Positions 8,653-23,401 of a DNA stretch of 64,000 nt are shown piece by piece. Made by a program: the position numbers and the translations under genes. Origin of the DNA: Leucobacter coleopterorum (GTDB taxonomy: Bacteria > Actinomycetota > Actinomycetes > Actinomycetales > Microbacteriaceae); contig NZ_CP049933.1 in NCBI RefSeq assembly GCF_011382985.1, positions 1,054,001 to 1,118,000 on the forward strand, written 5' to 3'. The notes under the pieces are model-generated. The model made no database searches. It saw only the letters and a program-made list of their open reading frames with translations, and was not told the DNA's origin. Within the stretch, counting starts at the first letter, position 1. The number at the start of each line of letters is the position of its first letter.

Positions 8653-9611
8653 TTATTTTCCATTCGACACACCCATTGAATGAATAACCCTGTCTTGCAC
8701 GCGATACCCTATACATACCTCGCAGTATTCGGTATCGTGATCATGATTTTTTCGTCGTTTTGGGCCGAACATAACAAACCCAACAAGAGCGGGTGCGGCA
8801 ACCATCATAATTAGCCACCAAGGAAACCCCGCTTCCCCCTCTCCGAAGACTTGCTGCTCGGCCTGTTCCGGCAGAGCCGCTCGAACTCCACGTACGAGCA
8901 ACCGGTGGGTATTGACATTAAGGGGGTGCAAGTTACCAGCGTTACATAGTCCTCACCCGGTGTAATAATGAGGTCTTTGATGTTGTCGGGTGTGACGATT
9001 GAGATCTGATCCACTTGATAAGAAAGCTCTTCCCCCATCACTCTGATGGAGAAGTAGTCCCCCCTCTTCACCTCACCCAGCCGCGTGAGCATCGAGGCTT
9101 GCGGTAAACCAGAGTGTGCAGTCATGACGGCGTGTGTTCCTTTTCCCCCGACTGGAAGTGAAGAACCGAAAAGGTGGCCACCACCGTCCTCAAGTGCTTT
9201 GGCCTCTGTGCCATGACGAATGGGCAACTTTACAGCGATCTTAGGGATGCTCAATTCTGCCATTACGTCACTGTCAGGCAATCGGAGTTGCCGTGTGTAG
9301 TCTTCGTAGGTCGCTGACGTGTCCTCACGGTCGTTGCTGTTGCTGTAGGGGTCACGCAACACACCGAGCGGCAGGGTTTTGTTGTAGCTTCTTGCCGCGG
9401 CAAGTATTTGAAGTCGTTCTCTGTCAGGTAAAGATTGGGCTTCTCGCGCGTAAGAATCCACGAGATCTCCCTGCGTACGAGCCGACACCCAAGTCGCTGC
9501 AGCCGGGTAGCACATCACACTGACGCCGACGAATGCGGCGATAAGTACGGCGATTTTTGTCCACATTAGACTGCGATTCGATTTGGCAGCCTCATTCTGT
9601 GCCTTCACCAA
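8653..9611 (-). CDS. Class C sortase (pilus polymerase)
   Basis: Transpeptidase that links pilin subunits on the outer membrane face. The restored product has about 319 residues with an N-terminal membrane anchor (MWTKIAVLIAAFVGVSVM) and a lid segment with VLRDPYSN (class C Asp-Pro-aromatic). The catalytic residues are His in VMTAHSGLP, Cys in TLVTCTP and Arg in RLLVRG. A C-terminal helix (WWLIMMVAAPALVGFVMF) with a basic tail follows, typical of class C. The frame breaks at a five-G run (8922-8926 on the plus strand); a sixth base joins TLVTCTPL to NVNTHRLLVRG. It is the third gene of the tip-backbone-sortase operon. Confidence 0.88.
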
Positions 9612-9704: not shown

Positions 9705-11196
9705 TTATGCTTCCTGTGTGCTTCTGCGACGTGCGCGCACGGCAAGCAACACTGTTCCCGCGAGCAGGACAGTTCCAGCCCCATAGAACAGGCCAGCGCT
9801 CAACACAGATCCTGTGAAAGGTAGCTCAAATCCGCCATTTGCTGGTGAGTTCTCAACCGTGAAGTCAACAACTGAGTCAGCATCGCCAACGGTCACCCGG
9901 ACCGGCTCAGCAAGGAGCTCATAGCCGGTAGGAGCCTTTGTCTCAACGATCCAGTAATACTGGTACCCAGGGTCCCCTGGAGAAACAGGGGCATTATTCA
10001 CCCAGCCAGACTGATGCAATCCCGAGATTGTCACGAGACCGCTCGCGTTCGTTGTCCAAGTCGAGACGCCACCGATTTCGATCGGGTTCACGCCATCGCG
10101 AGCATCGTTTTCAGAGGCATAAACCTGAAAAGTCGCTCCGGCAAGTTTCGTGTTGTTGTCTGCTGCACTGACCTTAGAAATGGTGACGTTGCCGTACTTG
10201 ACGACGGGCTCAGGCGTAGGTGTTGGGCCGCCTGGCTCTCCTGGCTGAATATCAAAGCTTGCTGCGTTGGGGTAAATGATCGCCTGGTTAGGAATATCGC
10301 CGACTTCGTTGATGACGGTTGCAATAACTACCTTGACGCTAGCCGTCTTGTTTGCAACGAGTTTCGCGCGACCGTCCGCCGTAAAGTCCACTGTCACACG
10401 AGTGCCATCAGCGCCGCTCGGCGGCACCGTGTTCACCGTGTAATCCGTATTTAGAGTGAGTGGAGTGCCATTGCTCAGTGACACAGTGGTGCTGCTGTAG
10501 GTCAGGCGTGAGTCGAGAGGGTCGACGATGCGGTAACCGTCAAGCGTGTCAACATTGGGAATGTATCCGGTGATAGTCCAGGTGATTTCATCACCAACTT
10601 TGAGCTTGCCAGCATCCTCAACGGTCTTCTCACCGGGATTGTTGACGGCGTTCTTGGGGTAGATATGCACGTTATACATCCACGAGTCGGTGTCGACCGG
10701 ATCTGTCATGGGACCGTCACAAGAAACGGAGCGCCGGCGGTTGTTCCCGCGGGCACAATTGTTTCGGTGACGAGGTAGACGCCGAGCGGCAGATTCGAGG
10801 CAATAGCGTCGCCGTTGTTGTCTGAAGTGGCAGTTGTGGTGTAGCCCTTGGTTGCGAGAGCCGCTGCATTGGGGTGAGCGTTTGCAGGGCAGTCCAGCCG
10901 GCGTTTGTCGTCAGGTTGTAGCTTGCCGGATCAACCTGCTCGACGGAAAAGGTTACGCCGGGTAGAGGCTCAAGGCCAGCTGTGCTGGCGGCGGGCAGTT
11001 CGCGGCCGTCGTGTGCGAGTCCGGTTGCAGTCTCTGGTTTCTTGAACTTATGGATTGAGAGCGTGCCTGTTTGATCCGGGTCGATCGTCGAGGCTGAAAC
11101 CGCTGAAGCGGCGGAAGCCGCGCCGAAAGCGAGTAGTACGGTCGCCGAAACAACCGAAAACGCGCGGATCAGCCGCCGTTTCTTTTGGATTTCCAT
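9705..11196 (-). CDS. Fimbrial major subunit, SpaA-type LPXTG pilin backbone
   Basis: Secreted pilin of about 497 residues after restoration. Order of parts: signal peptide (MEIQKKRRLIRAF, hydrophobic core, ASA); N-domain; pilin motif with lysine in MYNVHIYPKN; isopeptide-forming D2 domain (GDEITWTITGYIPN); Cna-B/SpaA domain (GNVTISKVSA) with the E-box VETKAPTGYELL; LPFTG sorting signal, membrane helix and RARRRS tail. Two single C omissions (plus-strand gggg 10871-10874 and ggg 10710-10712) split the frame. Repairing both gives the continuous text LTPNAAALATKGY and LVTVPMTDPVD. It lies between the tip protein and the sortase, as in SpaABC-like pilus islands. Confidence 0.88.
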
Positions 11197-11274: not shown

Positions 11275-13508
11275 CTAGGCCTGAAACGGCTTGCGGCGTC
11301 GCAGGAGGTAAGCGGTGGCGAGTGCGATGGCTACAAGAGCGCAACCTGCCAACATGGGAATGGTCCAGGGGATGTGCCCCCAGCTTTTGGAAGTACCAGC
11401 GTCGCGACATCTGACACAACAAGCGTGTTGCGTTCGATTGAGACAAGGCCATCAGGGGTGGCATCCATGCTTAGCTGGCCATTCGCTGCGATCTGAAATC
11501 GAACCGGATTGGCGAGCAACACGTGACCGTTGGGTGCGCGCACTTCTTCGATCCAGTAGTGACCCGGAGCCACTCCTGTGGCTTCAAAATGTCCGGTGTC
11601 ACCCGTGCCGGTTACCAGTTGGTTTGTGAGCGGTGCCCCCGGCCTACCGGATTCATCCGAAAGTAAACGGAACGCAGCACCGTCAAGGAGAGCGCCACCC
11701 GCGTGTGCCGATGCTCGTTTTTCGATCGCGATCCGTCCGCTTGAAGGAGTGTCGGTCTCGCACTCGGGTTGTGGTGCGGAATTGGGCGCGCAAGACGTGG
11801 GCTCAGAACTACCGTTTCCGGAGACCGTGTTGTGAAGATTTACACTCCAGGCATCGTTATTGACCCGAACCGAGTAAGTGAGCTTGGCCTGCTCTCCAGC
11901 GGGAAGCATGAATGGTTCTGTTTGCAACGACGTGCCGATTGGGTCGGATACCTCAATAGGTGCTTCGCTACCTACTCGCAACTTTGCCGACCCAGAAACA
12001 AAGCTCGCATTATTGAGTACACCACTGAGGTTGTCGCTGAGCACTACATCTTCAACGTCTCCACTGACACTCGTTGCAGTCACGGTGTAGTCCACCTGCT
12101 GACCAGGGTCGACGAAGGTGCCTGCGGGAATCGAAGTTGTCTTTTGCACGTTCCACTCAGGCGGCTCGATGGTTGTGACCGCCTCGGCAGTGTTGTTTGT
12201 GAGATCAGTGTCGATATCGCTGCCAAGTACTTGTGCTCGGTTCACGACCTTCGTACCAGGTGTGCGTGGTGCGGTACCAGCGATTTCGAGATGGAACGTT
12301 TGCCCGGGTTCAAGCACTGAGGGCACAACCTGTGTTGTATCCGTACCCGAAAGTTGAACGTCAACGTCAGTTGCCGCTGCTGGCAGAATCTGCCATTTCT
12401 CTGGTGAAACCGAGCAACTCAGGTCTCGGCCAGTTAGCGAGCAGCCCGTGGGTGCTGAAACTAGTCGCGGGTTCTCCACGGACTCCGGCACCGCATCACG
12501 AATGAGGAAACCGTGTGAGCCCGCGGTGACCTGATCATCGATATCTATGAACGGACGCGTGAGGCCCAGATTCGCGACACTGACGTCGATGTTCCAGTTG
12601 ATGTCGCTCCCGGAGGCAACTGACGCAGGAGCAGATTTGCGGATCGAAAGATCAGCAGAAGGCGACCATGCCTGGATCCCAAGGTTGCTTAGGATAACAG
12701 AGTCCTTGAAGGCAGAGGGGGATTCAACAGACTGTTTAGTGACCATCGCAAAGTAGCGCGCCTCGATAGTGACGCTGCTGACTAGACCGGAAACTTGCAG
12801 GGTGCCCCAATAGCCAAGTGGCCGATTGCCGTTTCGCTCCGCAATCGGAAATTGGTCCCCGCCGTAATCGAAAGTACCGTCTCTGTAGTCCGGGTGAATT
12901 GTTTGATCGCCCCGTTGGATCTCGTGTAGACGTGTCGTGTCGGCCTGAACGCCATCGATCTCGACAATGCTGGGATTCCAGTAGGTGGAGAAATTGAAGG
13001 AGAGGTCCTCGCCGGCAAAAGCAGCATGCACAGGAGCGAACATGACAATCGGGTTCACCTGTGGCCGATCCCAAGAAATAGTCACTCTCGGCGTGTAATC
13101 ACAGTCTCGGATGGAGCCGGTTGGAAGAGGTAAACCGTCGTTGTATAGGCAGTTCTTTACCTCGTCTCGCAATGGCGCTGTTACACTCTGACCAGCGCTA
13201 GCATCTCTATCAGAAATTCCGAGGTTTGACCCACCGCCAGTGGTCACGATGTAATCATTCGGAGACTCAACCTTGACGGTGACATCACCAAAGCCACCGG
13301 GCATCTTCCCCGTATTTGTGTACCCCGGAGTATTTGGCATCAGCGGTCGTTCGTAACTGCGAGTGACGCTGCTTGCTGCTTCTGCAGGACCCGCGACTCC
13401 GTTCGTCACGAGCAGCGCGGTGAGCGCACCGAGTGCCGCGACGCATCTGATGACAAGGCGTGAAACGCGATTTGACCGGTGTGCCGGTCTCAACGTGCTT
13501 GCGTGCAT
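11275..13508 (-). CDS. Large surface protein, probable pilus tip/minor pilin with LPKAG signal
   Basis: About 744 residues. A signal peptide (to PAEAASS) is followed by a region resembling a collagen-binding or adhesin head. DUF11-like repeats follow (SADLSIRKSAP, EPPEWNVQKTTSIPAG with VDYTVTATSV). Then comes a Cna-B/SpaA domain (GRIAIEKRASAHAGGALLDG) with the E-box-like YWIEEVRAPNGH. The frame runs into LVLPKAGG and then breaks at a five-C run (11377-11381). One added base restores LPKAGG, a hydrophobic helix starting HIPWTIPMLAG and the tail RRRKPFQA. LPKAG is a non-standard LPXTG variant. It is the first gene of the pilus operon; GAGGTAA lies six bases before the ATG. Confidence 0.8.
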
Positions 13509-13710
13509 TCTGAGTTACCTCGTAATCCTTTATCATTCCGTGCTCCTTGTGTGTTCAGGAGCACATCCCGAATACAGGCATGCAAGAAGCGGGTTTGAAC
13601 TTACGCGAGCGCCAAAACTTTTTTCGTATGCGCAGATAATTTCCTCTCGGAGTCTCTTTGCAGGTACTTCCAAGGCATTTAGCACAAGTGCAAACTATGG
13701 TGAACGCTTG
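13509..13710. promoter_or_regulatory. Divergent control region, pilus operon / sigma-factor fusion gene
   Basis: A 202-base AT-rich spacer between the tip gene (leftward) and the ECF-fusion gene (rightward). It holds an inverted repeat gtgctcc (13540-13546) / ggagcac (13558-13564) close to the pilus start. A T-rich tract (aacttttttcg) and aggtacttccaagg lie nearer the sigma gene. I cannot assign -35/-10 elements with confidence. The position makes it the natural target for self-regulation by the fused sigma factor. Confidence 0.45.
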
Positions 13711-15414
13711 ATGTCTACAGAACCGATCCTGACCCTTGAATTCACGAGCGACACACCCGCGACGGAAGATGACGACGCTGCCCTTTTGCAGCGGATACGG
13801 GAGGGCGATACATCAGTTTTCAGCGAGCTCTGGGAGAGACACTCAGTGTTCGCGCAGAAGGTTGCCCGGGTTCAAACCTCTTCTTTTGACTCCGATGATT
13901 TGGTATCTGAGTCTTTTACGCGCATCTACCGAATTCTCCTGAATGGTGGTGGTCCCAAGGGTGACTTTCGTCCATATCTGTACGTGACAATTAAAAACCT
14001 GGCGCGCGAGTGGGGGCGCTCGCTCCGCGAATTCACCATGCCCGATGAAGAGTGGTTGGAATCTTTGGAGCTGGAAGAGCCCGGTCCGGAAGCGTTGAGT
14101 AGCGATACGCTCCTCGCACACGCTTTTGCCGAACTCCCTCAGCGGTGGCAAGAAGTCCTCTATCGTGTCGAGATTGAGGGTGTGTCACCCGCGGCCCTCG
14201 CAAAGCACCTGGGTTTGACCCCAAACACAACCCACCAGCTCATACGCCGTGCTCGCGAAGGGCTCCGGGAAGCGTGGGTGCAGGCCCATATTCCTCTTCG
14301 CGTTGCCGGATCGGAGTGTCGTTGGGCGACTGAACGCATGGGAGCATACGAACGTGATCGATTGAGTAAACGAGAACGAGGACGATTCGAACGTCACGTT
14401 GAAGACTGCATCGAGTGCTCTCAACTGGTCAAACTTGCGGAGCAGGCCGGCTCCCGGATACGAGTAGTCTTGTTTCCGATCTTGCTTGCCGGTGGACTCG
14501 AAGTATGGCGGTCCAAACAAGCTACCGTGGCCAGTGCTGATACCGGAGGCCTGGTGAATGCTCGACGAAACAAGCATGTGAGCAGGGGGCAAACATCAAT
14601 GCTGGCCCCTGGGCGAATTGCGGTGGGGGCACTGCTTGTATGCGCTTTGGTGATTCTCTTCACTGCCTTGGACAACGCTTCGCCTGCCGGAGGTGCGGCG
14701 GTGTCGCAACCTGATCCCACACGTGAGACTATTGACGGGGTGAAAGCACCGCTGGTACTTTCAACGCCCTGGTCCCAGCAGGCTGTAACGGCAGCGTCGC
14801 CTCGGAAACGGCTAGGGGCTGTCGAACCGGGTGATGACCAAACTCAAGAAGACACAGCGTCTCGTTCTGCTCAAGACTCAGAACCAGACGATCGTGAGAC
14901 ATCGCCTGATACGAATATAACCGAGCAAACAATCGAGCAGCCAAGCTACAATATTGAATTCTTACCTCTGGCTTGGGGGAGCCGAGGAGGCGAGGGCACA
15001 AACTTTACCGAGCTCGTCTCTCTGCGGATCAGTAATGCGGGTGAAGTGACTCCAAATCAGCCACTCACGTTGTCCGTGTCACACCCGATACCACAGCATT
15101 GGTCGATCTCTGACGTCTTGCGTAACGGACTCACGGATCCTGCCATCTCGTTCACACACTCGTCCGGCTCAACATTTGTCACGATCCAGGATCCACCCGG
15201 TGCTGGTGAGTCCACAGTGATTACGTTTGCGCTCACCTACGACTGGTCGAGTTGGTCTCACGACTTCGTGTTGAACCCGGACTTCTCTTCATCTCGCATC
15301 GATCGACCTGGTACTGCGATAACCGTCCGAGTCTATAGTGACACTCCAGAAGGGTCTAACGTCGAAAGCACGGTTTACTTGTGGAGTCATACAACTGGCA
15401 CACCCGCCCCTTAA
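13711..15414 (+). CDS. ECF sigma factor fused to zinc anti-sigma domain, membrane helix and ectodomain
   Basis: A single 567-residue chain. Sigma region 2 covers about 20-100 (DDLVSESFTRIYRILL, RPYLYVTIKNLAREWG). Sigma region 4 is at about 135-195 (LPQRWQEVLYRVEIEGVSP, LAKHLGLTPNTTHQLIRRAR). A zinc anti-sigma motif H-x3-C-x2-C follows at His229, Cys233 and Cys236 (RHVEDCIECSQL), then a short hydrophobic stretch near 250-266 and a membrane helix near 303-321. An acidic, Thr/Gln-rich linker leads to an extracytoplasmic beta-rich domain that resembles the DUF11/Ig-like modules of the neighbouring surface proteins. The start at 13711 (MSTEPILTLEF) is chosen because the upstream open frame only shadows the divergent tip gene. 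The frame is intact. Confidence 0.85.
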   Translation: MSTEPILTLEFTSDTPATEDDDAALLQRIREGDTSVFSELWERHSVFAQKVARVQTSSFDSDDLVSESFTRIYRILLNGGGPKGDFRPYLYVTIKNLAREWGRSLREFTMPDEEWLESLELEEPGPEALSSDTLLAHAFAELPQRWQEVLYRVEIEGVSPAALAKHLGLTPNTTHQLIRRAREGLREAWVQAHIPLRVAGSECRWATERMGAYERDRLSKRERGRFERHVEDCIECSQLVKLAEQAGSRIRVVLFPILLAGGLEVWRSKQATVASADTGGLVNARRNKHVSRGQTSMLAPGRIAVGALLVCALVILFTALDNASPAGGAAVSQPDPTRETIDGVKAPLVLSTPWSQQAVTAASPRKRLGAVEPGDDQTQEDTASRSAQDSEPDDRETSPDTNITEQTIEQPSYNIEFLPLAWGSRGGEGTNFTELVSLRISNAGEVTPNQPLTLSVSHPIPQHWSISDVLRNGLTDPAISFTHSSGSTFVTIQDPPGAGESTVITFALTYDWSSWSHDFVLNPDFSSSRIDRPGTAITVRVYSDTPEGSNVESTVYLWSHTTGTPAP

Positions 15415-15710
15415 AGTATTGTATTTCGTTTGTATCGGCCTACAAGGATGAGGGTCAGTTTGCTAGGGCCTGTATCGAGAGTCCACTGGCTTGATGCATG
15501 TGATAGCTTTTGCTGTGCAGTATTTCAACACATGTAGATAAATTGTGATTGGGGTCTGATGTTTTTGGGATTTCCCCATGTTTTCAGCTTGCGCGTCTAT
15601 ACTTTAGTCACGTTGTGTTGCCTAGATATATATCTCGTTCGGCCACGACCACATGTTTGGGGCATGGTCTTCGAAAACTAGTGATATTGCTATGCGGTGG
15701 GGAGCCGGAT
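15415..15710. other. AT-rich spacer before the RCC1 surface-protein gene
   Basis: About 296 bases of unusually AT-rich DNA with no convincing gene. A short upstream extension of the RCC1 frame (from 15549) has no family similarity. The spacer probably carries the promoter of the RCC1 gene. I see no clear terminator hairpin after the sigma-fusion stop. Confidence 0.4.
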
Positions 15711-17910
15711 TTGTCTTTGAATACACCTCGGTCTGTTCGTAAGTTGCGCGGTCTGAAATTTGCTGCGGGCAGCGCCGCTCTTTTGTTGCTCGGAGGTTTA
15801 GCTGCACCGGCCGCTGCCGTAGAGACCTCGGTGCAACAGGGGCCAACAGCTGGTGGTACCGAGGTTGCTATTACCGATCTCGCTCTCAATGAGTCCATGC
15901 AGGTCTTTCCGACTTCGCGCTTTACCCTCGGGATCGGCGGAGATGGGGTGCTCTATGGCTGGGGAGCAACAACTATGGTCAGCTGGGTGAAGCTCCACTT
16001 CCAGCAGGCGAATCATGGGTACCAGAGCCGACCGAGGTTGATAGGACCGGTGTGTTCGATAGCCCGGTGGCAAAAGTTGCTCCCGGTCACGGTAGTGCTT
16101 TAGCTCTCACTGAGATGGGGACGTTGTACGCCTGGGGTGACAATAGGGGTGGCCAGCTGGGCAACGGCTCCCTCACTTCAACGCACATACCCACTCCTGT
16201 TGACATGACCGGTGTTCTCGCGGGCAAGGAAGTTGTTGACATTGCGGTGATCGGCATGAATGAAACGTACATGGCGGTCACTCGAGACGGTCTGATGTAC
16301 ACCTGGGGCTACGGCACCACGCACGGCCAGCTAGGTAACGGCATTCTGGGGAATTCCTCCGTACCTGTTGCGGTCGACACGAGTGGAATCTCACCTAGTC
16401 CCAAGGTTGTCGAAGTGTTTGGTGGCACGCAGTCCATGACCTGGCTCGCCCGCACAGATGATGGCAGGCTCATTAACTGGGGGTACGGCCTCCAGGGGCA
16501 GCTGGGGCATGGACGCTTCGGGAACGAGTCAAAACCAGTCGCCGTAAACACAAGTGGTGTCCTCGCGGGAAAACAAATCACTAGTGTCGCGACCTCCGTT
16601 GGTAGCAACGGTGCGGTTTTTGCGCTCACCTCAGACGGGCAGGCATTTAGTTGGGGGTACAACTCCTATGGCCTTCTTGGAAATGGGTCAACAACTGATA
16701 GTTCGATCCCTGTCGCTGTAAACATGAGCGGTGTGCTCGCGGGGAAGACCATAACGAAATTGGTGGCGGGATCCACTTCAAACCACGCGATCGCTCTTGC
16801 AAGCGACGGAAAACTCTACGCGTGGGGAGAAGGTTACTACGGTCAGATGGGGAACGGAACGAGTGGTAACCCTGGGATACGCAACCCTCTTCCTGCAGCA
16901 GTGGATATGACGGGTGTGCTCGCGGGAAAAACCATCGAGGACGTTCAGATCGCCTGGAACACGACACTCGTTATCGCTGATGGTCAGGCTTACTCCTGGG
17001 GTACTTACACCGGAACGCCAGGGCCACGAGTGACGTGAAGACAACTCCCGTTGCGGTCGACACGAGCGGTCCCACAGCTGGTAAGACCATTGTGCGGAGT
17101 TACCTCAGTTCGCGCATCGACTACATGTACCGCACGCTTCAAGATAGCGACGGCAACCTCTACTCTTGGGGTGGGCCGTACGTTCTTGGGGCGGGAGGAG
17201 CTACGATCTATTCCTCGACCCCGGTTGCGGTTCTGATGCCGGAGTCTGACATATCCGTGAATTTTGGTGACTCGCCCGCTGCCTCTATCGAAAGGACGGG
17301 GGTAACCTCGGTTACCGCGGTGACTCCGTCTCATGTCTCGGGGAAAGTTCCTGTGACGGTTCGCTATGGTGACAGGGTCTTCGCCGCTGGCGATTTTACT
17401 TTCGGAACCCCTCCGGTTGTTCTCGTAAACCCTAAATCGGCGAGTGTTTCACCAGGGGCGACCGTTCGGATGCAAGCCGCCGGGCAGGGAGACGAGACGC
17501 CTGCCGTGGCCTGGCAGGTGTCTCAAGACGATGGACAAACCTGGGTTGCTTACGAAGCTGATGCCCCTGCCGCGCTGAGTGAACTTGAGACGTCTGCTGA
17601 ATTAGTTCTCGAGTCGGTCAGCGCTGAACTCGACGGGTCGCTGTTTCGGGCTGTCTTTACAAATGACCTGGGGCAAGCTGTTACGGCTGAAGCCAGTGTC
17701 ACCGTCAACGAGAACGTTGGCCCAACAGAAAAGCCCAAGCCGCCCACAGTGAATCCTGGTGGGAAAGACGAGGGAGAGAATCCCGGCGGAGGACTCCCAA
17801 CCACGGGTGGGAACGAGGATGTAGTGGCGGGCATCGTTTCGGTTGCTCTCATAGGAATCTTCGCTGGAACAATTGTGCTAATGATGAGGAAACGGTCATA
17901 CGTACGGTAA
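15711..17910 (+). CDS. LPTTG-anchored RCC1-repeat surface protein
   Basis: About 733 residues after restoration. The TTG start at 15711 is preferred because ggtgggga precedes it and a signal peptide follows directly (RKLRGLKFAAGSAALLLLGG to PAAA). Seven to eight RCC1-like blades follow, each with a [YFN]xWG..xxGQLGNG core (LYAWGDNRGGQLGNG, MYTWGYGTTHGQLGNG). Next come an IPT/TIG-like domain (ITSVTPS-like VTAVTPSHVSGKVPVTV), an Ig-like domain (VAWQVSQDDGQTW) and a Pro/Gly linker. The end is LPTTGGNED, a helix and MMRKR. Two breaks are single missing Gs at 15961-15964 and 17021-17023. It should be displayed on the wall by a housekeeping sortase not seen here. Confidence 0.85.
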
Positions 17911-21304: not shown

Positions 21305-22469
21305 GTGGATCTTTACGAGTACCAGGCACGAGATCTATTTGAGCGTTACGAGGTGCCGGTGCTGGCCGGCATCATCGCGGACACTCCCGAAGAAGCTCGT
21401 GCTGCCGCAGAGAAGATTGGCGGCGTTGTTGTCGTCAAGGCGCAGGTAAAGGTTGGAGGCCGCGGCAAAGCTGGCGGCGTGAAGGTTGCGAAGAACGCCG
21501 ACGAGGCGTTTGCAGCCGCAGAGGCGATCCTCGGCCTCGACATCAAGGGGCACGTCGTCAAGCGCGTCATGGTCGCTGCCGGTGCAGACATCGCCCAGGA
21601 GTTCTACTTCTCGGTGTTGCTCGACCGCGCGAACCGCTCCTACCTCTCGCTGTGCAGCGTTGAAGGCGGCATGGAAATTGAGCAGCTCGCCGTTGAGAAG
21701 CCGGAAGCGCTCGCGCGCATCGAGGTTGATCCGATCGCTGGCATCGATGCCACGAAGGCCGTCGAGATTGCTCGCGCCGCGAACTTCCCGAAGAACTGGT
21801 CGAGAAGGTCGCAGCGGTCTTCGAGAAGCTCTACGCCGTCTACGTTGGTGAAGACGCAACCCTCGTCGAGGTGAACCCGCTCGTGCTCACCGGCGCTGGC
21901 GACATTATCGCGCTCGATGGCAAGGTCTCGCTCGACGAGAACGCTGAGTTCCGTCACCCAGAGCACGACGCGCTCGCCGACAAGGCCGCAGAGGATCCGC
22001 TCGAGGCGAAGGCCAAGGCGCAGGATCTCAACTACGTGAAGCTCGACGGTGAGGTCGGCGTGATCGGTAACGGTGCTGGGCTCGTCATGTCGACACTCGA
22101 CGTTGTTGCATACGCTGGCGAGAACCACGGCGGTGTGAAGCCCGCGAACTTCCTCGACATTGGCGGTGGTGCCTCGGCCGAGGTCATGGCCGCTGGCCTC
22201 GACGTGATCCTTGGTGATCCGCAGGTCAAGTCGGTGTTCGTCAACGTATTCGGGGCATCACCGCGTGCGACGCGGTTGCCAACGGTATCGTGGGTGCACT
22301 CGCGACGCTCGGTGACTCGGCGAATAAGCCACTTATCGTGCGCCTCGACGGCAACAACGTTGAAGAGGGTCGCAAGATCCTCAACGAAGCTGCCCACCCA
22401 CTCGTCACCCTGGCAGCAACCATGGACGAGGGTGCCGACAAGGCCGCTGAACTCGCCAACGCTCGCTAG
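21305..22469 (+). CDS. sucC: Succinyl-CoA synthetase beta subunit
   Basis: Beta subunit of the TCA-cycle enzyme interconverting succinyl-CoA and succinate with nucleoside triphosphate formation. It starts at a GTG read as [19 protein letters not shown]. Recognisable parts are the ATP-grasp region [28 protein letters not shown] with [15 protein letters not shown], then [16 protein letters not shown], and [10 protein letters not shown]. One missing C (21787-21789) and one missing G (22252-22255) break the frame. Restoring them gives 388 residues with [16 protein letters not shown] and the normal C-terminus. A disrupted sucC next to disrupted sucD strongly argues for sequence error. Confidence 0.93.
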
Positions 22470-22499
22470 CCCGCACCGGAACGTAGAAGAAGGAACACA

Positions 22500-23401
22500 A
22501 TGTCGATCTTCCTGAACAAGGATTCCAAAGTCATCGTCCAGGGCATCACCGGCGGCGAAGGTACCAAACACACGGCGCGCATGCTTGCCGCTGGCACCCA
22601 GGTTGTGGGGGCGTGAACGCTCGCAAGGCCGGCACCACGGTGTCGCACGTTGACGCGAACGGTGCCACCGTCGAGCTGCCAGTGTTTGCCACGGTCGCCG
22701 AGGCAATGGCCTCGACCGGAGCCGACGTCTCCGTCGCGTTTGTGCCACCGGCGTTCACCAAGGATGCCGCAATCGAGGCCATCGACGCGGGCATCGGCCT
22801 GCTCGTGATCATTACCGAGGGTGTGCCCGTCAAGGACTCGGCCGAGCTCTGGGCTCACGCCAAGGCCACCGGTAACAAGACCCGCATCATCGGGCCGAAC
22901 TGCCCCGGCATCATCACGCCGGGCGAGGCTCTCGCGGGCATCACTCCCGCCACGATTACGGGTAAGGGGCCGATCGGTCTCGTCTCGAAGTCGGGCACGC
23001 TGACTTACCAGATGATGTTTGAGCTGCGCGATCTCGGCTTCTCAACAGCCATCGGGATCGGCGGAGACCCGGTCATCGGAACGACCCACATCGACGCGCT
23101 TGCCGCGTTCGAGGCTGATCCCGAGACCAAGGCCATTGTCATGATCGGTGAGATCGGTGGCGACGCTGAAGAGCGCGCAGCCGAGTACATCAAGGCCAAT
23201 GTAACGAAGCCGGTTGTTGGCTACGTCGCAGGCTTCACCGCGCCCGAGGGTAAGACCATGGGCCACGCTGGCGCCATCGTCTCAGGTTCGGCCGGAACGG
23301 CTCAGGCGAAGAAAGAAGCACTCGAGGCGGCTGGCGTGAAGGTCGGCAAGACGCCGTCTGAGACCGCGCGGTTGCTGCGTGAGGTCTACGCAGCGCTGTA
23401 A
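22500..23401 (+). CDS. sucD: Succinyl-CoA synthetase alpha subunit
   Basis: Alpha subunit carrying the CoA-binding domain and the phosphorylated histidine. The start is ATG at 22500 behind GAAGAAGGA. Residues read [20 protein letters not shown], then break at a five-G run (22607-22611); one more G restores [13 protein letters not shown]. Later motifs are [44 protein letters not shown] and the histidine loop [18 protein letters not shown]. The restored length is 300 residues, as expected. It is co-transcribed with sucC across 30 bases and followed by two hairpins. Confidence 0.95.

Follow-up and report, generated by a model that had tools for sequence, protein, structure and literature searches.

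The window, by which is meant the whole stretch of 64,000 nucleotides of Leucobacter coleopterorum DNA that was analysed, carries a gene in which an ECF sigma factor, a zinc anti-sigma domain, a membrane helix and a putative ectodomain are joined in one chain, and this gene lies between a sortase pilus operon and a gene for an anchored surface protein. With a probability of about 0.55 we read the protein as a one-protein sigma/anti-sigma device that in Leucobacter has been applied to surface structures, where the ectodomain would read the state of the surface or pilus and cutting of the chain would free the sigma factor onto the adjacent operon. Across the genus the fused sigma genes often lie beside surface genes, in relatives a promoter-like motif varies with the clade of the sigma factor, and in nine relatives the ectodomain is homologous to a pilin.

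The fused sigma factor and its locus

The open reading frame has no internal stops, and the positions of its parts and of the surrounding genes are collected in Table 1. The ECF assignment comes from TIGR02937 (sigma70-ECF), which covers residues 37-188 with 61.9 bits against a cut-off of 42.9, and from Sigma70_r4_2, above its cut-off at 28.7 bits, with Sigma70_r2 at residues 43-104 reaching 20.1 bits, below its cut-off of 24. C-terminal to this sigma part follow zf-HC2 (26.5 bits, above cut-off), with an H-x3-C-x2-C motif at residues 229-236, and the only hydrophobic helix above threshold in the hydropathy profile, starting at residue 303, which is the order expected of a fused ECF/anti-sigma protein. 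The motif is kept in 68 of the 70 called relatives that score above 110 bits, a count that is free of the selection for the zinc motif by which the rows of the sigma alignment were chosen and by which the motif is invariant there. The cysteine at residue 203 is invariant across 14 aligned rows.

Table 1. Positions of the fused sigma factor, its parts, the neighbouring genes and two chimera examples from relatives
Feature	Position	Strand	Basis or remark
Class C (pilus) sortase	8811..9611	-	Pfam Sortase; NF033745 above cut-off, 225.9 bits
Backbone pilin in two pieces (10717-11196, 9705-10709)	9705..11196	-	Pfam: GramPos_pilinD1, GramPos_pilinBB, SpaA; LPFTG anchor
Tip pilin	11331..13508	-	Pfam: DUF7927, DUF11, SpaA; LPKAG close to the end of the open frame
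Intergenic divergent region, tip gene / sigma gene	13509..13710		Weak profile match inside
Fused ECF sigma / zinc anti-sigma / membrane / ectodomain protein	13711..15414	+	567 aa, one frame
Sigma region 2, residues 37-104	13819..14022	+	TIGR02937, sub-cut-off Sigma70_r2 and model helices
Sigma region 4, residues 135-183	14113..14259	+	Sigma70_r4_2 over cut-off
zf-HC2 zinc anti-sigma domain, residues 203-236 (C203, H229, C233, C236)	14317..14418	+	Pfam, over cut-off
Membrane helix, residues 303-321	14617..14673	+	Hydropathy and model helix 303-322
Post-helix linker, residues 322-410, predicted disorder	14674..14940	+	pLDDT mostly <50
Ectodomain core, predicted beta-rich, residues 413-510	14947..15240	+	Low-confidence models, without family match
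RCC1-repeat surface protein in pieces (16052-17038, 17035-17910)	15549..17910	+	Pfam; TIG domain, terminal LPTTG anchor
Chimera example with pilin-domain ectodomain	L164:9305-11032	-	
Chimera example with pilin-domain ectodomain	L061:8559-10268	-	

A full-length model built from 14 sequences has a mean pLDDT of 56.6, most of the sigma and zinc parts exceeding 70. Helices are predicted over residues 19-100, with block pLDDT values of 74-86 from residue 21, and are well predicted across most of the sigma and zinc parts; the membrane helix is then followed by a long linker of low confidence and, at about 413-510, by a beta-rich region. Most of the PDB entries that this model matches at E <= 0.001 are ECF sigma factors, with TM values of 0.25-0.49 when scaled by target length; amongst them are sigmaE-RseA, AlgU-MucA, CnrH-CnrY, SigW-RsiW and SigK-RskA. 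As the matches include both anti-sigma complexes and RNA polymerase complexes, they do not indicate the state of the model. An earlier note, made from the letters of the sequence, had read here a single uninterrupted chain of sigma, zinc, helix and outer domains, and Pfam, NCBIfam, hydropathy and the model all bear this out; the domain build likewise supports its picture of a sigma factor tied to the membrane with its anti-sigma domain in the same chain. Such a build suggests that the sigma domain would be held inactive by the zinc domain fused to it.

The same note placed the sigma gene divergent from a pilus operon and upstream of an RCC1 surface gene, and it was right on both counts, as seen from Pfam, from NF033745 and from the LPxTG-type anchors. 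The operon is of the SpaA type and adjoins the sigma gene, with its pilin split and the end of the tip gene broken; in the N piece of the backbone pilin GramPos_pilinD1 is below cut-off. Positions 15549-16103 are perhaps a further piece of the RCC1 protein and have no Pfam match. Frame changes split the pilin, the RCC1 gene and also a succinyl-CoA synthetase-like gene at 21305-22515 (the last named by eye), and their presence in several window genes suggests an indel-prone assembly or gene decay; the sigma gene itself is free of them.

The fusion in related genomes

Matches to the window protein at E 1e-8 are found in 27 of 40 genomes: its own, 22 of 24 further members of the genus and four of 15 genomes from other families. 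When a relative was used as the query at E 1e-20, 147 of 398 sampled genomes of the family gave a match, some of these rows matching solely via the pilin part of the query. A scan of named genomes with a four-row alignment of closer sequences gave matches in Leucobacter and Microbacterium; the contig scan of named genomes with a single protein as the query found no relative. It is apparent that the fused sigma factor recurs in many Microbacteriaceae, and that it is present in several copies in the window's own genome, where 14 matches at E 1e-8 include nine in which a single called gene also holds the zinc motif, the window gene being one of the nine.

The earlier note had named a sequence error that merges two genes as the finding that would overturn its reading. 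Such an error is ruled out at the joint because the same order of sigma, zinc domain and helix recurs in the genus and the family, genomes of a single contig included. Separately, truncated fused-sigma copies of the own genome lie beside transposase-like frames, seen by eye, at L009:7057-8279 and L016:6685-7899, and a fused-sigma copy in L009 carries an internal TAG.

Ectodomains and the sigma-pilin chimera

The outer part of the window protein resembles little else. Within residues 326-567 no Pfam family is found at E 0.1, and at this threshold no carbohydrate-binding domain of the ECF52 type is recognised; phmmer gives no match to the neighbouring proteins at E 0.01, neither phmmer nor Pfam gives homology to a pilin domain, and a search of 54 Leucobacter genomes returns only the ectodomain itself. 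The likeness to the Ig/DUF11 modules of the adjacent surface proteins, on which the earlier note had drawn, is thus not borne out by Pfam or phmmer. A single-sequence model of the ectodomain alone is beta-rich (mean pLDDT 53.7), and its top PDB matches, at E 0.003 and TM of about 0.4, are mostly beta-sandwich domains, with none at E <= 0.001; the fold is predicted to be beta-rich and we conclude nothing further of it.

A different outside part is found in sigma clade B. There phmmer aligns the ectodomain of L059, L060, L061, L067 and L072 with the second half of the backbone pilin encoded two genes away, with E values of 2e-52 to 2e-63 against the pilin of the same locus in all five. Full-length relatives of this chimera are present in seven of 54 Leucobacter genomes and in both genomes of a second genus, g66, which gives nine genomes in two genera; in each of the nine, a class C sortase and a separate copy of the pilin domain are encoded no further than about 6 kb from the chimera. 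SpaA is above its cut-off in the ectodomain of the chimera L164 and marginally below it in L061. The pilin C-terminal domain has been retained complete with its anchor helix and basic tail, and in the nine chimeras (seven aligned, two read by eye) so have a lysine, a glutamate and an asparagine, which we take to be those of the internal isopeptide bond of such pilin domains.

Homology between ectodomain and neighbour was considered as a general rule and was rejected, as phmmer on the called fused genes and profiles of four groups found it in clade B only. Within clade B the pilin part is missing from L071, L073, L077, L166 and L167, which end in a short outside stretch. An order-wide search for chimeras gave 0 of 396, a search with no positive control, so that the empty answer shows nothing.

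Which side of the membrane the ectodomain lies on depends on the number of helices before it. An additional hydrophobic stretch lies close to the zinc motif in 46 of 68 fused relatives, and the window protein has none over threshold. This stretch could be the helix with which the anti-sigma domain ends, or it could cross the membrane as a second helix, in which case the ectodomain would be inside. In the chimeras the second anchor is followed by a basic tail, which speaks for a single helix ahead of the pilin domain and hence for a position outside.

It may be that the ectodomain of these proteins is a ligand sensor in the style of ECF52, binding an external sugar, or a host or wall polymer, in which case the surface genes would be a mere regulon whose assembly is not sensed. 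ECF52 members are described as bearing a carbohydrate-binding domain outside the cell (PMC5826349), and the anti-sigma factors of the RsgI sets of C. thermocellum, which sense substrates, offer an analogue (PMC12203970, PMC6056542); the ectodomains of the other clades tested are moreover Ig-like or unassigned, without homology to their neighbours. Against this, the pilin-domain ectodomain of clade B has a copy of the same pilin encoded nearby in nine of nine genomes, which points to self-sensing there at least, and we regard a ligand sensor as the less likely explanation.

The sorting signals of the chimeras have changed in a consistent manner. Seven aligned pilins end in LPLTG or LPMTG and the nine chimeras in LARTG, LAQTG, LSNTG, LSMTG or LVNTG, such that the proline of LPXTG has become alanine, serine or valine in nine of nine, with the threonine and glycine retained in nine of nine. 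The altered signal would either be unusable for the pilus sortase, leaving the chimera as a permanent membrane decoy, or be passed to a class E sortase, a gene for which is above cut-off in all ten genomes searched (those of the nine chimeras and that of the window). Four of the nine signals are of the LAxTG form, which is given as the signal of class E sortases (PMC5148588), and it could be argued from this that in the pilin-bearing relatives the protein is an anchor and not a sensor, a pilus base or wall tether fixed by the class E enzyme and tying the sigma factor to the wall or pilus. The other five chimeras have LSxTG or LVxTG and the window protein is without such a signal at its C-terminus, both of which count against an anchor, and we think this explanation improbable.

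Returning to a device that reads surface assembly, we put forward, tentatively and with some doubt, that Leucobacter and the second genus hold a sigma-pilin chimera that acts as a decoy amongst the waiting pilins and reports pilus assembly to RNA polymerase, and that the window protein, of the same regulator family, does the same job for its own pilus and RCC1 surface genes by way of another ectodomain.

Surface genes beside fused sigma factors

A C-terminally anchored surface gene directly adjoins 38 of 59 fused genes in the related genomes, against 8 of 208 control genes, the controls being taken from 20 regions of genus genomes at round coordinates rather than at random. The 59 include four genes from outside the genus as well as near-identical pairs; for the genus only the count is 38 of 55, and 32 of 46 once near-identical copies are collapsed. 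Three loci that are counted in the 38 of 59 (L117, L118 and L121) appear to repeat L100, L105 and L107 and were dropped from the ectodomain comparison onward. All six Leucobacter genes from the scan of named genomes have a surface neighbour, three of them apparently repeats of loci counted before. The gene calls were made by a simple script, which leaves neighbour counts approximate, most so in the own genome with its many split genes, where an anchored surface gene is directly beside two of the nine fused sigma genes and within two genes of five, and where surface-type Pfam domains are found in 7 of 10 long neighbours picked by hand. Besides the window, class C sortases are found near three separate sigma branches: clade A (L055, L100, L105), clade B and L088.

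Beyond these genera the pairing fades. Of the Microbacterium fused sigma genes none of seven has a surface neighbour (an eighth locus, L128, ends within the gene and is outside the seven), and in other genera the count is one of 15 loci, chosen from the best matches of the family-wide search. The pairing with surface genes is a trait of Leucobacter and genus g66 and not of the whole family, so that the expectation of the earlier note, that homologues should lie near surface-protein genes, holds in Leucobacter, on the strict count as well, and fails in Microbacterium and the other genera.

In the own genome, further RCC1-type surface proteins lie near other fused-sigma copies in L017, where Pfam finds RCC1 repeats and He_PIG, and in L016, where RCC1 is seen by eye only. 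An invasin-like protein (Big_1, Invasin_D3), actinobacterial, is encoded directly downstream of a fused sigma paralogue at L011:7796-11038.

A promoter-like motif in relatives

Dyad counts find TCAT-17-GTCT upstream in 13 of 84 non-redundant fused-sigma regions, against a maximum of 8-10 in shuffles, and find no enriched dyad in 44 regions upstream of surface genes (top 6, shuffles 5-7). Reading of the upstream regions led to the pattern [CT]GCGTCA[GCT]-N16-19-TCT (GCGTCA-N17-20-TCT), which was extended and counted on the same material, with related loci that are not independent, and the numbers that follow thereby overstate the case. In 1806 kb of sigma regions the pattern has 75 matches against 28-32 in shuffles; in control regions it has five against 5-11, and in the regions of the own genome (240 kb) three against five, three and one.

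With the own genome omitted, the motif is found in the upstream 300 bp in 12 of 89 cases for fused sigma genes and in 14 of 105 for anchored surface genes, compared with 10 of 1117 for other genes in the same regions and 1 of 308 for genes in control regions (Fisher 4e-9 for the sigma genes and 5e-10 for the surface genes). All 14 of the surface-gene matches are in Leucobacter or g66. Ten of the 12 sigma-gene matches are in other genera and two in Leucobacter, both of them in clade A, so that autoregulation in Leucobacter rests on one clade. The base that follows GCGTCA goes with the clade of the sigma factor, being G in clade A, C in clades B, E and W, and T in the other genera, an agreement that holds for 26 of 26 genes, or 21 of 21 with one taken per near-identical pair; with the other genera also left out it is 11 of 11, with a permutation value of 0.013.

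In the window no clear instance of this motif is found. In the own genome it is upstream of none of nine fused sigma genes, none of 11 anchored genes and one of 188 others. In the window's divergent region the pattern has no match, a relaxed scan gives one poor match that falls within a coding region, and shared dyads stay inside the shuffled range; a weak profile match on the minus strand at 13628-13603, directed toward the tip gene, has 4.6 bits and an E value of 9.7 over 286 kb and is not significant alone. Of the recurring promoter motif for which the earlier note proposed a test ahead of the tip, sigma and RCC1 genes, a promoter-like candidate is thus seen at sigma and surface genes of relatives; it is not found in the window by pattern, nor upstream of the called sigma and surface genes of its genome, and the window sigma factor may use a different promoter sequence.

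Some further sites were seen by eye or lie outside these counts. On the plus strand at 13614-13655 of the window the elements AAAACTTTT, TGCGCAGAT and TCT resemble by eye the element of the relatives minus two bases, a likeness that has the support of none of the tests and was not counted. The best profile match of the own genome is a site in L011 (E 0.012), and this region shares GCGTCATAAAT with L178, a relative from another genus. In L178 about 355 bp separate this sequence from the sigma gene that it precedes, and in L011 it precedes an uncalled frame seen by eye. In other genera a second copy of the motif lies directly downstream of the fused sigma gene (L173, L176, L179, L180, L181, L182 and L183), with GTCAT-only variants in L171 and L172. 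In seven of these nine loci the downstream copy is directed against a convergent gene whose product has about 252 aa, beside one of about 600 aa, a pair which from size and order we presume to be sdhB and sdhA. No small open reading frame at the downstream copy passes the filter in eight of the nine loci, and an antisense or small RNA is possible.

An ordinary envelope-stress sigma factor that has expanded by chance in Leucobacter, with the nearby surface genes reflecting shared variable regions of the genome, would suit the split genes, and the transposase-like frames seen by eye, that lie close to some copies in the own genome, the other genera in which the fused sigma lies away from surface genes, and the own-genome surface genes without the upstream motif, and is nonetheless very doubtful given the enrichment of the motif at the adjacent surface genes of relatives, in variants that match the clade, and the homology of the clade B ectodomain to a pilin.

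A proposed surface-coupled sigma switch

If the fused device does read surface assembly, it might work as follows. At rest the zinc domain (residues about 203-259) would hold both sigma regions, 2 and 4, at the membrane in an inactive state, whilst the ectodomain would sense the state of the pilus or surface layer that is built by the adjacent genes. A signal would then cause the chain to be cut step by step, within the membrane helix or close to it, and the zinc domain to be lost; the sigma domain, once free, would activate the surface operon next to it and, in some members, also the gene that encodes it. Inhibition, sensing and cutting are proposed because of the published fused relatives (PMC5826349, PMC8999054); direct control of the operon is likewise our inference, and it is the neighbours and relatives of the window gene that suggest what its target and signal would be. 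A Peptidase_M50 gene, whose product would be a candidate for this cutting, is found in the own genome, as it is in all 14 control genomes.

Were this true, a pilin domain outside the cell and an inhibitor inside it would connect an extracellular fibre with RNA polymerase by a very short feedback loop, and sets of paralogues with clade-specific promoter variants would form a natural set of surface-coupled sigma switches.

Comparison with known systems

The order of domains is not itself new. The earlier note had thought the full arrangement unusual, and sigma, zinc domain and membrane helix are already described in one chain for ECF48, ECF52 and ECF53 (PMC5826349, PMC8999054). By its domain build the window protein belongs with this fused kind, Pfam and NCBIfam yielding no ECF group, and like SCO4117 of Streptomyces (ECF52) and the members of ECF48 and ECF53 it is an actinobacterial sigma factor with a C-terminal zinc domain, a helix and an outside part (PMC5826349, PMC8999054). 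Release by proteolysis has been proposed for fused sigma factors of the SCO4117 type, and evidence from truncation or proteolysis is reported for SCO4117 and IutY (PMC5826349, PMC8999054). In contrast to these groups, the Leucobacter system has sortase pilus and adhesin genes as neighbours and several paralogues in a genome, and it differs from ECF52 in that no carbohydrate-binding domain is recognised in the window protein and that the outside part is a pilin in nine relatives. Both the sigma-pilin chimera and the link with sortase pili appear to be new, as the open-access literature searched gave no paper with a title or abstract on a fusion of sigma factor and pilin, or on sortase pili together with a fused sigma factor.

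IutY (ECF243) of Pseudomonas putida likewise combines a sigma factor and a membrane anti-sigma factor in one chain, and is processed by Prc and RseP (PMC8999054). Unlike the window protein, it serves siderophore signalling. Its anti-sigma part is of the FecR kind and not a zinc domain, and we know of no surface-fibre genes as its neighbours.

The SigI-RsgI sets of Clostridium thermocellum are similar in having several paralogues and in controlling a surface machine, and their RsgI anti-sigma factors sense substrates and are cleaved in the membrane helix (PMC12203970, PMC6056542). They differ in being two separate proteins, in belonging to another sigma family and in sensing polysaccharides. 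To our knowledge the manner in which Gram-positive cells match the supply of pilin to the assembly of pili is largely open. A comparable case is RlrA-RrgA of the pneumococcus, in which transcription of the pilus is said to be under feedback from one of its subunits, there through a separate transcription factor and without the fusion of sigma factor and pilin that is found in the relatives of the window protein.
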